From: Nitrospirota bacterium
GTDB lineage: Bacteria > Nitrospirota > Thermodesulfovibrionia > Thermodesulfovibrionales > UBA6898
Length of the DNA stretch: 64,000 nt
Reading direction: 5' to 3'
NCBI GenBank assembly: GCA_021811105.1
Contig: JAJZPM010000003.1
Coordinates: 62,001 to 126,000 of the forward strand
Positions within the stretch are counted from its first letter, which is position 1, and each line of letters starts with the position of its first letter. Both the position numbers and the translations under genes were made by a program. The notes under the pieces were generated by a model that saw nothing but the letters and a program-made list of their open reading frames with translations, did not search any database and had not been told where the DNA came from. Positions 1 to 64,000 of the stretch are shown here, piece by piece.

Positions 1-1980
1 CTCTTCGACCCCTATGTGAAGTCCTGCGAGGGCAGGCTCCAGTGATTCATGGACCGGGTTTACATATGAGACACCGCTATTGCGGCTGAAAAGCCGCACT
101 TTTTTACTTGGAATCCAGCCGTTGCCGGCTTCCTCCGGATAGGAGCCGTCATTTCGTTTCCATCCGTGCATACCCGTATAAGCGACATAGTTTCGAGTGG
201 TAATTGCATAGGCAATAGGTTGGGCCGGCTTTTCGGTAATAAGGGCCTTAAACCGTACATAGTCCTTAGGGGAGATGACCTCGTCGGCGTCGAGGGTGAA
301 TATCCAGTCCCCCGATGCCCTTGACAACGACTCGTTCCTCGCCTCGGCAAAACTCCCCGTCCACACAAAATCATATACCTTCGCGCCGAATACCCGCGCG
401 ATATCCTTCGTCCGGTCGGAAGAACCCGTGTCCACCACGATCATCTCGTCGGCGAGCCTTCTCATGCTCCTCAGACATCTCGCCAAATTCCCCTCCTCGT
501 TCTTCACGATCATGCATAGAGACAGTGTGCCACGCCCCTTTTCTGTCCGGTCTATCTCCTTCGCCCCAATCGTATTCCGCACCTCAAGTCCGGCTGCCAG
601 GATACCGTCATCCACGCCAAAGGTCGCCATCGCGTCTTCGACCTCTTCAATTGCCGTGTCCCGCTTGCCCTGCCGTGGCTCATTCTCGGCAATGATAATA
701 TACTGATAGACAAAAAAGCGGAGCACCTCCTCCCTGTTGAGGCCGGTGAGGCTCATCTTCTCATGGGTCAGGCAGTTTCCGGTCTCCTGTATCTTGGAAA
801 CATCGACGGGCGGGTTCAGGACGTATTCCGTCTTCAACAGGGAAAGCCCTGCACCTAAAAAAAGACTCTCAATTTCACTCCGCGTGAAAAACCGCAGGTG
901 CGTTGCATCAAGAATGCCTGCACTCTCATATTTCCAGCTGCCCTGTATCAGGCTGTTGACCACAGTTATGTTCTGAACGTTAGGGACCGAGGCTATAACG
1001 TGTCCGCCGGGTCTAAGAAATCTCCTCAGACCGGCAAGGACGTCCCACGGGTTGTAGAGATGCTCCAGTACATCAAGGGCGATGATAAGGTCGAATTCAC
1101 CGTATTCCAGGCCGTGTTCGAGCAGATCGGCGCTTTCTATGTCAGCGACAATGACCTTGTCCAGGTACTGCCGCGCCAGCAGGGCTGCCTGCTCGGACAC
1201 CTCGACTCCCGCATAAAAATCCACCTGCCGCTCCTGCTTCAGCCTCTGTCCGGTGGCACCGCCCGCACAACCGATCTCAAGCACCCTGCTCGCCGCGAGT
1301 CCGTTTTTCACTATTGCCTCGATTATTTCGCCGCGGGCGAATGAATAATACGAGCCGGCCTTTCCGGACTGCAGGGGGCTGGCACTGTTGACGGCCTGAT
1401 TCACCTGGCTTGGTCCGGATGCCCGACTCCTGTAATCGCATTTGGACTCTTTCTTCCAGAGGATGCAGAAGCTGTCTCCCCATTGATCGCTGCCGTCCTT
1501 AAAGCCGGTCGGCCCCCAAATGGTCTTTGCCTCCAGTACTTCGAGACCGGCCCATTTGGCAAGCGCACGCAGACCGTCGGGATAGTATCTCCAGCAATCA
1601 ACGGGATGTCTGTGCTCCGGCCCTCTTGAAGGCGCTACGATACAGATCAGGCCGTTCTTCTTCAGCACCCGGGTCATCTCTCTGATGGCAAGCCAGGGAA
1701 ACTCCATATGTTCAAATTCCTGGCCTGAAATGATCACGTCATACGACTCGTCTTCCATCTCCACCCATGCGTTGGGGTTTTGGGGGACATAGTCGATCCC
1801 CGGGCTGCGCCGGAAGGCCAGACGTGCATAGACAAAGAGGGAATTATCAGAAAAAAGTTTCTCGTAGCCGCCTTCCGCTTCACAGCCGCCGACATCCAGA
1901 ATGCTGATCTTGCGGCCTTTGAAGTGCTGGGTGACGAGGCTGCGGAATTGCGACATAATCGTGAATGAGCTCTGGTGCAT
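1..1980 (-). CDS. Methyltransferase-methyltransferase-GT2 glycosyltransferase protein, 3' end cut by window edge
   Basis: The reading frame is open from ATG at 1980 to base 1, so 660 residues are visible and the C-terminus lies outside. GGGAG stands 8 bases before the ATG. Residues 24-180 form a class I SAM methyltransferase-like domain (ILDVGG at 27-32, then SGQEFEHMEFPWLAIREMTR). Residues about 208-400 form a second, clearer one (VLEIGCAGG at 233-241, DVLEHLYNPWDVLAGLRRFL). From 485 a family 2 glycosyltransferase starts (LSLCMIVKNEEGNLARCL, VVDTGSSDRT, LDADE). Known families of this build modify surface sugars; a role in flagellar or surface glycan synthesis is inferred from the neighbouring flagellar cluster and the SGNH and acyltransferase genes upstream. 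The substrate cannot be told. Confidence 0.85.
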   Translation of the reverse strand, partial: MHQSSFTIMSQFRSLVTQHFKGRKISILDVGGCEAEGGYEKLFSDNSLFVYARLAFRRSPGIDYVPQNPNAWVEMEDESYDVIISGQEFEHMEFPWLAIREMTRVLKKNGLICIVAPSRGPEHRHPVDCWRYYPDGLRALAKWAGLEVLEAKTIWGPTGFKDGSDQWGDSFCILWKKESKCDYRSRASGPSQVNQAVNSASPLQSGKAGSYYSFARGEIIEAIVKNGLAASRVLEIGCAGGATGQRLKQERQVDFYAGVEVSEQAALLARQYLDKVIVADIESADLLEHGLEYGEFDLIIALDVLEHLYNPWDVLAGLRRFLRPGGHVIASVPNVQNITVVNSLIQGSWKYESAGILDATHLRFFTRSEIESLFLGAGLSLLKTEYVLNPPVDVSKIQETGNCLTHEKMSLTGLNREEVLRFFVYQYIIIAENEPRQGKRDTAIEEVEDAMATFGVDDGILAAGLEVRNTIGAKEIDRTEKGRGTLSLCMIVKNEEGNLARCLRSMRRLADEMIVVDTGSSDRTKDIARVFGAKVYDFVWTGSFAEARNESLSRASGDWIFTLDADEVISPKDYVRFKALITEKPAQPIAYAITTRNYVAYTGMHGWKRNDGSYPEEAGNGWIPSKKVRLFSRNSGVSYVNPVHESLEPALAGLHIGVEE

Positions 1981-2013: not shown

Positions 2014-3699
2014 TCAGGCGTTCTTTGTTTCGAGCATTTTCAGATACTCGTCTCTCCCTTTGAACCTGAACAGATACTTCGGGTCGCTTATATCCATTTT
2101 CCCATGGCTCACACAGTGCCGGCAGGTCTCCGATGGCCCGACCACCAATTCCTTTCTCAACCTGAGAATGGCCGAACTGTTCCAGACCTCTTCGACCGAA
2201 GATTCGCCGAGATTGCCCAATATGTATCTGTCCGGAAAATCCATGCAGCAGGGACCGACCCTGCCGTCGCTGTAGATATAGAGATGTTTAAAGGGATACG
2301 CGCAATAGAGTCCATGCGCGTTATTCTTCAGCGGAGCAGAAAATAAACCCGGCATAAACATGGCCACCCCGAGTTGGTCTGCAAGCTGTTTTGCCTCTGT
2401 AAATTTCCTGTCGGAAAGCTCCTGTTCGTGATACAGGCTTTCGCCTCTGAGTTCCGGTACATACATCACATTATGGTATGCAATGATCAGGTCAACACGA
2501 TATGACTTTGCAAACTCCACGACCTGGGGGAGTTCATGGATGTTGGATTTCATGCCTCCGAAATTCAGTATCAGCTTCGGGAATAGGCTGTTATAGTGCA
2601 GCTTATATTTGTTAAGCAGCCCAAGGCTGTTCCTCAACGTCTCTATACTCCCGTTGATCCTTATCTTGTCATAAGTATCTTTGCTCACCCCATCGCACGA
2701 AAAGCTCAGTTCATGGAGACCGCTCTCTACTATCCTTTTTGCAGTCTCTTTATTGAGCAACTGCAGATTTGACGTAGAATGGACCCGCACGTTGTTTTGC
2801 CGGGAATCTTCTACAAAAAAGAAGAAATCTTTGCATAACAGCGGTTCTCCCATGCCGACAAGGTGGATGTCACTTAACTGTTCCAGAACAGGATGGATTC
2901 TCCTGTCCCAGAGGGTCTTCTGGAAGAAACCCTTCTTATGGCCACCGGCATATTGAAAACACTGAGGGCATCTGAGGTTGCAGGAGCTCGATACTTCCAC
3001 CTGCAGGGACTTCAGTTCTCTGACGGGCGCCGCATAATCCATCAGATCACCCTGCCTTGCCCGCAGGCGTCCTTCCAGATCGCTCTTGTCCGCAACATCC
3101 ACCCAGGCGCCACTGGCCACATCAAAAAGTTTTATCACACGGCAGGGGTTGCCGGCAGCGACGCAATAATCGGGGATATCTTTCGTGACAACGGTATTGG
3201 CCCCGATCACGCAATGCCGGCCGATCCGGACGTTGCCGACAACGACCGTGTTCGTCCCTATCCACGTGTCGTCGCCGATTATAATCCGGTCTTCATGCGT
3301 GGATATGCCCTGATGTAGTATCGGGACCCCGACATGCCGGTATTCATGGTTGTGATCACTTATTAAGATACTGGGGCCGAGCAGAACGTTCGCTCCTATA
3401 GTTATTTTGTTGGCTGCGGAGATGGTGCACCTTCTCCCGATATTAGTTCCTTCCCCGATTTCGATCATGGGCTGGAAATTTGTATTATTAAAGGCGATGT
3501 TGAGCCAGCAATCCTTCTGGATCACGACATTGTTTCCGAAGCGCATCTTCTGTATCCCCCGTATGTCGCAGGTCGGGTCGATGGCAACATTACCAGGACG
3601 GGGGGGATCCGCCGCCGCATGTTCCCTCTGTCCGTCGTTCCCCGCATTAGCTTCCTGCATCATCGACATATACTTCTTTATGTCCTTGTCTTCGATCAT
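2014..3699 (-). CDS. Left-handed beta-helix acyltransferase fused to radical SAM/SPASM domain
   Basis: 561 residues from ATG 3699; a longer frame to 3834 exists but overlaps the upstream gene, and the chosen start matches the start of that gene (MIED.DI). Residues about 45-185 are hexapeptide-repeat acyltransferase (IGEGTNIGRRCTISAANKIT, then SDHNHEY with the likely catalytic His at 116/118, IGANTVVTKDIPDYCVAAGN). From about 230 follows a radical SAM domain with CNLRCPQC (Cys 240, 244, 247) and a C-terminal SPASM-like region (GLYCAYPFKHLYIYSDG, GPCCMDF, CRHC). Known roles: acyltransferases of this type O- or N-acetylate sugars; SPASM enzymes modify peptides or sugars by radical chemistry. Which substrate the fusion acts on is unknown. 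It lies 7 bases after the SGNH gene and 33 bases before the glycosyltransferase gene, probably one operon. Confidence 0.85.
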   Translation of the reverse strand: MIEDKDIKKYMSMMQEANAGNDGQREHAAADPPRPGNVAIDPTCDIRGIQKMRFGNNVVIQKDCWLNIAFNNTNFQPMIEIGEGTNIGRRCTISAANKITIGANVLLGPSILISDHNHEYRHVGVPILHQGISTHEDRIIIGDDTWIGTNTVVVGNVRIGRHCVIGANTVVTKDIPDYCVAAGNPCRVIKLFDVASGAWVDVADKSDLEGRLRARQGDLMDYAAPVRELKSLQVEVSSSCNLRCPQCFQYAGGHKKGFFQKTLWDRRIHPVLEQLSDIHLVGMGEPLLCKDFFFFVEDSRQNNVRVHSTSNLQLLNKETAKRIVESGLHELSFSCDGVSKDTYDKIRINGSIETLRNSLGLLNKYKLHYNSLFPKLILNFGGMKSNIHELPQVVEFAKSYRVDLIIAYHNVMYVPELRGESLYHEQELSDRKFTEAKQLADQLGVAMFMPGLFSAPLKNNAHGLYCAYPFKHLYIYSDGRVGPCCMDFPDRYILGNLGESSVEEVWNSSAILRLRKELVVGPSETCRHCVSHGKMDISDPKYLFRFKGRDEYLKMLETKNA

Positions 3700-3706
3700 G
3701 TCCGGG

Positions 3707-4581
3707 TCATCCTTTCTCCTGGCGTTTGTTACCACGGGATCCAGGCATGGAGGGATGAAGAATGTGTTGCAGCCGCTCCCGAAATAAAGGCAGCGCGATC
3801 TGCCAGGCAGTTTGTCCGAGATGCCCTCCGTCAAAGTAGAGTTCGCTCTGTGTTTCCATGGTGTCGGTAAGCAAGAAGGGCAGTACCGTTATATATTCTA
3901 TTCCACTCGTCTCACAAGAGCGACCCAGGAGTCTGGAAAACTCCAGGGTAATGACATTTCTCTCCTGAGACGTCCCGTAATTTGGCCATTCAGGATTCGT
4001 GACAACAAGACAGTTGCTGGCTACCGGGCCCCACACAATTGGCTTGTAACCCTGCAATACCACCTCATGGAGGAATGCGAGATATCTCAGGACGGTAATT
4101 GTAATGGAACGCTGCAGATCAGGCGTGAATGCGGCATTTTTGTGACCTAGTCGCTTAATGATATGAAATCTGCAATCTATTTCACCGAAGGCAAAGACCG
4201 CACCATCCCAATCGGCGGGATTCTCTCTTTTGAGAATATCAAAAATCCTTTCCCTTGCCATAAGAGTTGATTGTCTCTCAACTAAAGAGGCAGCCAATAC
4301 CGGTCCCAAGTGAAATACGTGAAAGTTCATACCAAAAAGGGTAGATTCCCTGAAATCTTCCACTATCTTGTCCTCTCCGGCAAAAAAGAAAGAATGACTA
4401 TCCCAAACACCATAAACCGTGAAGGAAAATTCTTTTCGGCAGGTGCATCATTGCAGCAAGGACCGTTGTCGGGGTGACGGCTGCCGAGATAACTTTCCGA
4501 CCCTTCAATAAAAGCATCGGTCTTATCTCGCGCCTTCTCTATAATCGCCAAATAGTTTTCAATATCCGTATCTTCTATCAT
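3707..4581 (-). CDS. SGNH/GDSL hydrolase-like protein, split by a frameshift near 4430
   Basis: Two overlapping frames make one protein. Frame A starts at ATG 4581 (MIEDTDIENYLAIIEKARDK) and stops at 4363. Frame B runs to 3707 and carries the SGNH blocks: VWDSHSFFF (block I, encoded about 4410-4385), FGEIDCR (block III) and YFDGGHLG (Asp/His dyad). Frame B has a stop at 4448-4450 and no start before block I, so the two frames must be joined by a -1 shift between 4448 and about 4410, where AAAAG and TTTT runs lie (4426-4436). The joined product is about 291 residues. A homopolymer sequencing error, a true mutation or programmed slippage are all possible. SGNH proteins of this kind act as esterases or acetyl-transfer partners on glycans. 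It leads the putative glycan operon. Confidence 0.65.
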
Positions 4582-4674: not shown

Positions 4675-4854
4675 AGAGAAAAACCCTTTTCGTCGCCGCC
4701 AAGTCATTGTTTACAGTGAACGTTTCCGGAAAAAATCACACCTCTCCGGCCCGGTTTTCCCATAGTAAGCCGTCGTCTTCGCCGGCGCTGCTGTCAACTT
4801 CTTGACTCCTTTACGCCCCATACCACATGTATCGACTCAAAGGGTCAAAGCCAT

Positions 4855-4882
4855 TAAAGATTACGCTCTCCTTTGACGATAA
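4855..4882 (+). promoter_or_regulatory. FliA (sigma-28) promoter of the TPR gene
   Basis: TAAA at 4855-4858, 16 bases, then GACGATAA at 4875-4882, against the FliA consensus TAAA-N15-GCCGATAA. Transcription would start near 4889, leaving a short leader with GGAG at 4893-4896 before ATG 4908. Two other sites of the same form lie upstream of flgM and cheW. Confidence 0.65.
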
Positions 4883-4907
4883 AGACATCAACGGAGAACG
4901 AATAGCT

Positions 4908-6113
4908 ATGGATCCGCTAATAGGAATAAGTTCGGCAGCAATTGTAGACAGTTTCTTCTCTGCTACCGCCACGTCGCAGGGCCAGTTGGACTATCTGGCC
5001 AACAGCACCCTCTCAAGAGGGATTGATCGCTATACGAAACAGGACTACGCCGGCGCTGTCCAGGATTTCAGGAGCGCTATCGGTCTCTCACCCTCCTCTG
5101 ATAATTCAGCCAAAGCATACGATTATATGGCGCAGGCATACATGAAGCAGAACAAAAGTGCCGAGGCCATCAAGACATACAAAGCGGCCATCAGCGTGGA
5201 TCCTTCAAACGATGGCTTTCATCTCAGCCTCGGTGACATTTACTTCAAGAACGGACAACAGCCGGAGGCCGAGGCAGAGTATCTGCTTGCGGTACGGTTA
5301 AACCCTAATTCAGCAGATAACAGGTATTCGCTCGGGCAGGCATATTTGGCGTCAGGCCGGGTCAGTGAGGCCGAAGTGCAATTCGAGAGCGTGACGAAAC
5401 TTGCTCCAAACAGTTCCACCGGATATTACGGACTGGGACAGGCATTCAGGCAGACAGGGAAATTCAACGATGCGCTTTCCCAACTTAACAAGGCAATAAC
5501 CCTTGATAAAAATTTTGCGAATGCCTACCTTGAGCTGGGTAAAACCTATGCAGATATGGGAAACATGGACCGGGCACAGAAACAGTCGGACATCCTACAG
5601 AACATACAATCTTCTTTATATTCCGATCTGCAGGGCTATATGGACCAAGTCTCTAATCCGAAGTTTCAGGCCGTATACAGCACAAACGGGTTCAGCACGT
5701 TTTTGGGTCCAAAAACTGCCGTCGCCAATTTAGACCCGGCACTCTCGTCCCCGAATACTTCCAAAAGTTTTATTATGAATTTCGCATTCTCAAAAGAAAT
5801 GGACGCGGATTCCGTTCAAAATATCGCTAATTGGCAAATAAGCAGAGAGTCGGGGCCATATACAAGTGATGACTATAACTTCGGGATGCCCCTTCCCTCA
5901 ACCGAAGTCACCCCCCCTGTCATGCCGTCAGCGGTCGCTTATAACCCTGAAAGCCGGACGGCTGTAATGACCTTCAGGATCGCGCAAAATGCCGCTGGCG
6001 ACGGAACAATGGATCCTTCACATATTGCATTTAAGTTTAACGGGATAGACGCCTACGGCAAAAAAATGGACCCTTCGGCTGACCAATACAGCGGCTTCTC
6101 ACAGATCGTCTAA
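4908..6113 (+). CDS. TPR protein with C-terminal Ig-like domain, flagellar late class
   Basis: 401 residues. The frame is open from 4827, but that start lies upstream of the FliA promoter, whereas ATG 4908 (MDPLIGISSAAIVDSF) has GGAG at a good distance. No clear signal peptide. Residues about 35-250 hold five or six tetratricopeptide repeats (for example AYDYMAQAYMKQNKSAEAIK, FHLSLGDIYFKNGQQPEAEA, GYYGLGQAFRQTGKFNDALS). The last 120 residues (NFAFSKEMDADSVQNIANW onward) look like a bacterial Ig/SbsA-like beta domain. It is the only plus-strand gene inside the flagellar block. The FliA-type promoter suggests it is made late with filament components; its function is not known. Its stop overlaps the stop of fhlX by 3 bases. 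Confidence 0.8.
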   Translation: MDPLIGISSAAIVDSFFSATATSQGQLDYLANSTLSRGIDRYTKQDYAGAVQDFRSAIGLSPSSDNSAKAYDYMAQAYMKQNKSAEAIKTYKAAISVDPSNDGFHLSLGDIYFKNGQQPEAEAEYLLAVRLNPNSADNRYSLGQAYLASGRVSEAEVQFESVTKLAPNSSTGYYGLGQAFRQTGKFNDALSQLNKAITLDKNFANAYLELGKTYADMGNMDRAQKQSDILQNIQSSLYSDLQGYMDQVSNPKFQAVYSTNGFSTFLGPKTAVANLDPALSSPNTSKSFIMNFAFSKEMDADSVQNIANWQISRESGPYTSDDYNFGMPLPSTEVTPPVMPSAVAYNPESRTAVMTFRIAQNAAGDGTMDPSHIAFKFNGIDAYGKKMDPSADQYSGFSQIV

Positions 6114-63788: not shown

Positions 63789-64000
63789 TGGGGATCCTCG
63801 GAAAGAAAATCAGGTTGGCCTTTGGCAGATGAATACGCATAGGCGATCGCACGGCAGCCCCTGCAGCCTGCCCACCTCCTGCAGTCACCGCATCTTCCCT
63901 TGTATCGGGTCCTGTCTCTGAGCGCCTCCAGCACCGGCGAAGAGGCCCACACTTCCCTGATCCTGTCATTTCTGACATTGCCTATGGGCACGAACAATCT
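63764..64000 (-). CDS. Radical SAM/SPASM protein, 5' part outside the window
   Basis: The frame is open to the right edge; 78 C-terminal residues are seen. PIGNVRNDRIREVWASSPVL, ALRDRTRYKGRCGDCRRWAG, CRGCRAIAYAYSSAKGQPDF, SEDPQCF is a SPASM-like iron-sulfur end similar to the AhbC/AhbD/NirJ group of haem-modifying radical SAM enzymes. The SAM-binding CxxxCxxC is not in the window, so the exact subfamily is open. Confidence 0.75.
   Translation of the reverse strand, partial: RLFVPIGNVRNDRIREVWASSPVLEALRDRTRYKGRCGDCRRWAGCRGCRAIAYAYSSAKGQPDFLSEDPQCFIGEGR

Follow-up and report, generated by a model that had tools for sequence, protein, structure and literature searches.

To our knowledge, the radical SAM enzymes of surface-glycan loci are largely uncharacterised. 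For acetyltransferases of the maltose-acetyltransferase family, it is established that the histidine of the HP motif acts as the catalytic base. Among radical SAM enzymes, the SPASM domain is defined by seven cysteines (CX9-15GX4C-gap-CX2CX5CX3C-gap-C) and two auxiliary clusters (PMC6231123), and in BtrN, which converts an alcohol of a cyclitol into a ketone, the single auxiliary cluster is fully ligated (PMC9012708). The flagellin glycosylation islands of enterobacteria contain WbbJ-type acetyltransferases and methyltransferase-glycosyltransferase fusions (PMC4875605). Here, we describe a gene that joins an acetyltransferase (AT) to a radical SAM domain in a fusion that is real, rare and recurrent, and we tentatively read its product as a two-activity tailoring enzyme, with an acetylation half and a radical SAM/Twitch half, for a glycan placed on flagellin. 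A literature search of open-licence PMC papers found no paper describing an AT-radical SAM fusion.

An acetyltransferase joined to a radical SAM/Twitch enzyme

The window, i.e., the whole 64,000-nt stretch of DNA that was analysed (G000:C45:62001-126000), lies within a large cluster of flagellar and chemotaxis genes in genome G000. We found that one uninterrupted frame at 2014..3699 on the (−) strand, with its ATG at 3699 and its stop codon ending at 2014, encodes a chain of 561 aa in which a left-handed beta-helix acyltransferase precedes a radical SAM core and, at the C-terminus, a domain of the auxiliary-cluster type, both halves scoring over their Pfam cut-offs. The first-pass annotation had given exactly these coordinates and had proposed that an acyltransferase with SDHNHEY and a radical SAM enzyme with CNLRCPQC occur in a single chain; the start and stop positions agree, no stop codon falls inside the frame, and both motifs were found together with their Pfam matches.

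The acyltransferase domain (residues ~40 to 207; 3079..3582, (−) strand) is of the WbbJ/maltose-acetyltransferase type. Specifically, residues 139 to 173 match Hexapep (PF00132) at 47.3 bits, against a curated cut-off of 27, and the nearest NCBIfam model is WbbJ at 94.9 bits, a score below the cut-off of 243 for the WbbJ equivalog NF007240. Maltose and galactoside acetyltransferases are the closest solved structures to this half, and His118, located in SDHNHEY, aligns with the HP-motif histidine of the maltose acetyltransferase 3srt and is invariant in an alignment of three orthologues (G000, G015 and G024). The N-terminal half therefore has the features by which a beta-helix sugar O-acetyltransferase is recognised, namely hexapeptide repeats and a catalytic-type histidine.

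The radical SAM core (residues ~221 to 375; 2575..3039, (−) strand) matches PF04055 at residues 235 to 375 with 48.2 bits (curated cut-off, 29.5) and contains the CX3CX2C motif of the superfamily as C240, C244 and C247. The following domain (2110..2304, (−) strand) had been labelled SPASM in the first-pass annotation, and residues 466 to 529 do exceed the curated cut-off of PF13186 (55.4 versus 21.5 bits). Despite this score, only CX12GX4C and CX2C of the strict SPASM pattern are present, since the last cysteines of the chain are C466, C484, C485, C526 and C529, with none beyond C529. These residues form the one-cluster cysteine set of a truncated SPASM domain (C466, C484/C485, C526 and C529). 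Because only the first four of the seven SPASM cysteines are present, with BtrN spacing, the domain is better called Twitch, and one auxiliary cluster is expected. The three radical SAM cysteines and the four Twitch cysteines are invariant in four aligned members of the subfamily and are also found in a fifth, from G446.

When the subfamily profile was compared with solved proteins, BtrN ranked first (E = 9.6e-14), and its alignment shows the same C-X17-C and C-X2-C spacing as the Twitch domain of the fusion. The likeness to BtrN is confined to two short stretches of sequence and does not fix the substrate. The confidence of the structure models is low to middling: the AF2 model of the whole chain has a mean pLDDT of 55 and that of the radical SAM half alone a mean of 68 (core, ~80 to 95), values too poor for the distance between the active sites to be judged.

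The variable site beside the flagellin genes

The site that houses the fusion has the same boundaries in four genomes (G000, G014, G015 and G024), with a TPR protein gene on one side (4827..6113, (+) strand, in the window) and a giant gene on the other (5′ part at 1..1980, (−) strand). By Pfam, the product of the giant gene combines two methyltransferase domains, three GT2 glycosyltransferase domains and TPR repeats; it measures 1,844 aa in full (L039 8446-13980), of which the first 660 aa are encoded within the window. The next genes past it are FlaF and flagellin genes in G000 and, likewise, FlaF, FlbT and flagellin in G015. The neighbours on which the first-pass annotation had based a surface or flagellin glycan, a methyltransferase/glycosyltransferase and an SGNH gene, are thus both in place, and the flagellin setting is borne out by the genes beyond the giant one. 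A 415-bp direct repeat (99.8% identical) within the giant gene, at 262-676 of the window and at L039 9370-9784 (G000:C45), duplicates a TPR-GT2 segment and may reflect recent duplication, gene conversion or an assembly effect.

The contents of the site vary among the four genomes. In G014, 379 bp without any gene separate the boundaries; G024 carries an acetyltransferase alone (208 aa), with no radical SAM domain; G015 carries the AT-radical SAM fusion; and G000 carries the fusion together with a frameshifted SGNH gene. With glycosyltransferase and modifying enzymes (the GT2/methyltransferase giant gene, the acetyltransferase and the SGNH gene) beside flagellin, the locus has the composition of a flagellin glycosylation island, and the variation among relatives is, as we interpret the comparison, that expected of such an island. 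Since the acetyltransferase of G024 occurs without the radical SAM domain, the two steps are separable. One locus in close relatives therefore offers a natural series (no insert, AT only and AT-radical SAM), so that mass spectrometry of flagellin from these relatives could show what each domain adds.

The SGNH-like hydrolase gene (3707..4581, (−) strand, by reading of frames) had no Pfam match. Its first ~20 residues resemble the N-terminal leader of the fusion, MIEDKDIKKYMSMMQEA (3637..3699, (−) strand), a similarity scored as high by 1 of 100,000 shuffles; by alignment, this leader is common to the SGNH gene and the acetyltransferase genes of the G015 and G024 locus. A DNA pattern built from the four leader-bearing genes occurred in those four genes only, all at this site, among 61 genomes. 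The reading frame of the SGNH gene changes after the leader and before the DSHS block (4350-4450 of the window), near short A and T runs, which may represent a real break, phase variation or a sequencing error. The SGNH-like protein shares 35% identity over 181 columns with the SGNH protein encoded next to the fusion of G446 and is nearly absent from 60 relatives, which suggests that the SGNH gene and the radical SAM half travelled together.

Several further features were seen at or near the site. An APS kinase (CysC) gene stands at its outer edge in G015 and G024 (L040 12706-13308 and L042 16780-17382, respectively) and is absent from the corresponding place in G000, hinting at sulfation in the vicinity of the genes for the flagellin glycan. 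By eye, two ATPase-like (AAA) genes lie near the site in G024 and an AbrB/PIN-like pair in G014, and no nucleotide-sugar biosynthesis genes were recognised in the window or the adjoining flank. The start of a further SPASM-domain gene lies at the far end of the window (63881-64000; G000:C45:125881-126060).

Relatives and independent fusions

The search of 150 relatives gave a single full-length orthologue with the fusion. It comes from G015, a different genus within the family, and shows 55% identity over residues 1 to 554 and the same flagellar position. A profile of the radical SAM half placed the subfamily in 2 of 395 genomes of the phylum (G000 and G015, with G390 scoring far lower), in 2 of 48 Magnetococcia (G422 and G446) and in 1 of 296 Bacteroidota (L007). 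The first-pass annotation had held that homologues consistently encoded by two separate genes would point to an artefact; instead, four of the five subfamily members found are fused. An assembly or fusion artefact is ruled out by the identical junction in G015 and by the independent fusions in G422 and G446. Searches for a plasmid, phage or viral origin gave no full-length match.

The Magnetococcia proteins (571 and 556 aa) join the same radical SAM subfamily to a different type of beta-helix, which matches Vat and CatB acetyltransferases best. This difference in type marks a separate fusion event, and the architecture has consequently arisen at least twice; the coupling of the two domains that was first noted in the window is thus a recurrent one. 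We found no conserved histidine upstream of IGxDVWIG in the two Magnetococcia fusions, where the catalytic histidine of Vat and CatB stands, so acetyl transfer by these domains is doubtful. Their acetyltransferase half may be catalytically dead, a reading to be taken with caution since the local alignments do not span the loop in question, and some members of the family may lack acetyltransferase activity.

The missing histidine is also what lends some weight to the idea that the beta-helix half serves mainly as a scaffold, for trimerisation or substrate docking, and that the radical SAM half is the sole working enzyme. We consider this unlikely for the window protein, as both it and its orthologues retain His118 and the acetyl-CoA-side signature (IGDDTWIG, GNP), and the acetyltransferase persists alone in G024. 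A glycan-tailoring enzyme with two working halves remains our preferred reading.

In the Bacteroidota MAG (L007), the radical SAM protein stands alone (342 aa, 57% identity), its gene lying between those for a Wzt-like ABC protein and methyltransferases. It groups with the G015 protein in a small tree (support, 0.89), a possible sign of gene transfer. In the Magnetococcia genome G422 (L053 1-11215), the fusion adjoins genes for a repeat protein of 3738+ aa, a GT61 glycosyltransferase and a methyltransferase-like protein, neighbours pointing to the decoration of a surface protein. Neither of these contexts is flagellar, and the site in G024 and G014 carries other mobile genes (the AAA ATPases and the AbrB/PIN-type pair), as might be expected if the enzyme acted on another surface glycan, such as O-antigen or capsule, and its flagellar location were incidental. 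We regard that as improbable, however, given that the acetyltransferase and the giant methyltransferase/GT2 gene are paired beside flagellin in three genomes and that the giant gene is present in the fourth; flagellin thus remains the favoured destination of the glycan.

Adjacency of SPASM and hexapeptide acetyltransferase genes was not seen as a general habit in this group: when the acetyltransferase profile was run on the 30 loci retrieved with PF13186, none had such a neighbour besides the two fusions. Among the radical SAM loci fetched earlier, a neighbouring acetyltransferase occurred only in G021 (L011), which had itself been found by matching both halves. There (L062 2564-3331 and 3332-4351), an acetyltransferase gene and a SPASM radical SAM gene, both different from those of the fusion, directly adjoin in the same frame, the stop codon lying beside the ATG, and the pair is an unfused counterpart of the AT-radical SAM pairing. 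A cluster on an Azospirillum oryzae plasmid (L047), with three radical SAM genes, two carbamoyltransferases, an SGNH hydrolase and a methyltransferase, is a possible related glycan locus.

Proposed function and comparison with known systems

For the favoured glycan-tailoring enzyme, the steps can be proposed as follows. The N-terminal beta-helix half, which probably forms a trimer as its relatives do, would use acetyl-CoA to acetylate a sugar hydroxyl (or amine), with His118 as the base. The radical SAM/Twitch half would cleave SAM to a 5′-deoxyadenosyl radical that abstracts a carbon-bound hydrogen, either from the same sugar or from the next one. The most likely outcome would be a BtrN-like two-electron oxidation of an alcohol to a ketone, with an electron passing to the single auxiliary cluster, and epimerisation would be the alternative. 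The adjoining methyltransferase/GT2 protein would then methylate the glycan and attach or extend it. In this scheme, the acetyl donor and acceptor, the oxidation and the sharing of one substrate by the two halves are all inferred, as is the trimer. Weighing against the scheme are the lack of recognised nucleotide-sugar genes, the acetyltransferase that occurs by itself in G024 and the seemingly inactive one of the Magnetococcia.

Foldseek does not separate the substrate classes, as the sugar-acting DesII and BlsE rank alongside the peptide-acting SkfB and SuiB. Direct modification of flagellin or another surface protein by the radical SAM half, in the manner of peptide-maturing SPASM/Twitch enzymes and with acetylation on protein or glycan, would accord with SkfB and SuiB in that list, with a weak NCBIfam similarity of this half to RiPP maturases and with the flagellin nearby, but it is quite unlikely because no RRE domain or precursor peptide was seen, the cyclitol enzyme BtrN is the closest profile match and the L007 gene adjoins Wzt and methyltransferases.

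The covalent joining of a rare radical SAM subfamily to an acetyltransferase restricts the probable substrates to those that are acetylated. A bolder version of the glycan-tailoring reading, possible but doubtful, is that the fusions constitute a new bifunctional family, built at least twice from different acetyltransferases, in which radical remodelling of a sugar is followed by an acetyl cap before release, yielding an undescribed flagellin sugar.

Compared with known systems, the radical SAM subfamily is rare, each half is a member of a known family and the flagellar glycan setting is of a known kind. The fusion shares with BtrN (2-deoxy-scyllo-inosamine dehydrogenase; PDB 4m7s/4m7t) a radical SAM core and one auxiliary-cluster domain with the same four-cysteine spacing, whereas BtrN is a single-activity enzyme of 250-270 aa, belongs to antibiotic biosynthesis and has no beta-helix domain. 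With WbbJ and the maltose and galactoside O-acetyltransferases (LbH family), which are used in surface glycans, it shares the beta-helix coils and a catalytic-type histidine; unlike them, it carries a leader helix and continues into a radical SAM enzyme at its C-terminal end, and it scores under the WbbJ cut-off. A Paenibacillus cellulosilyticus plasmid protein (WP_110042958.1) likewise has an acetyltransferase of the same type (40.6%) as the N-terminal half of a glycan enzyme, but its partner is a GT2 glycosyltransferase rather than a radical SAM domain, and its gene (L046 7980-9527) lies within an rfbF/rfbG sugar cluster. Finally, the locus resembles the flagellin glycosylation islands of Enterobacteriaceae in being a variable insert beside flagellin with GT2, methyltransferases and WbbJ-type acetyltransferases (PMC4875605), but it belongs to another phylum, lies between a TPR gene and FlaF/FlbT/flagellin, and includes a radical SAM enzyme, a term absent from the paper on those islands (PMC4875605).
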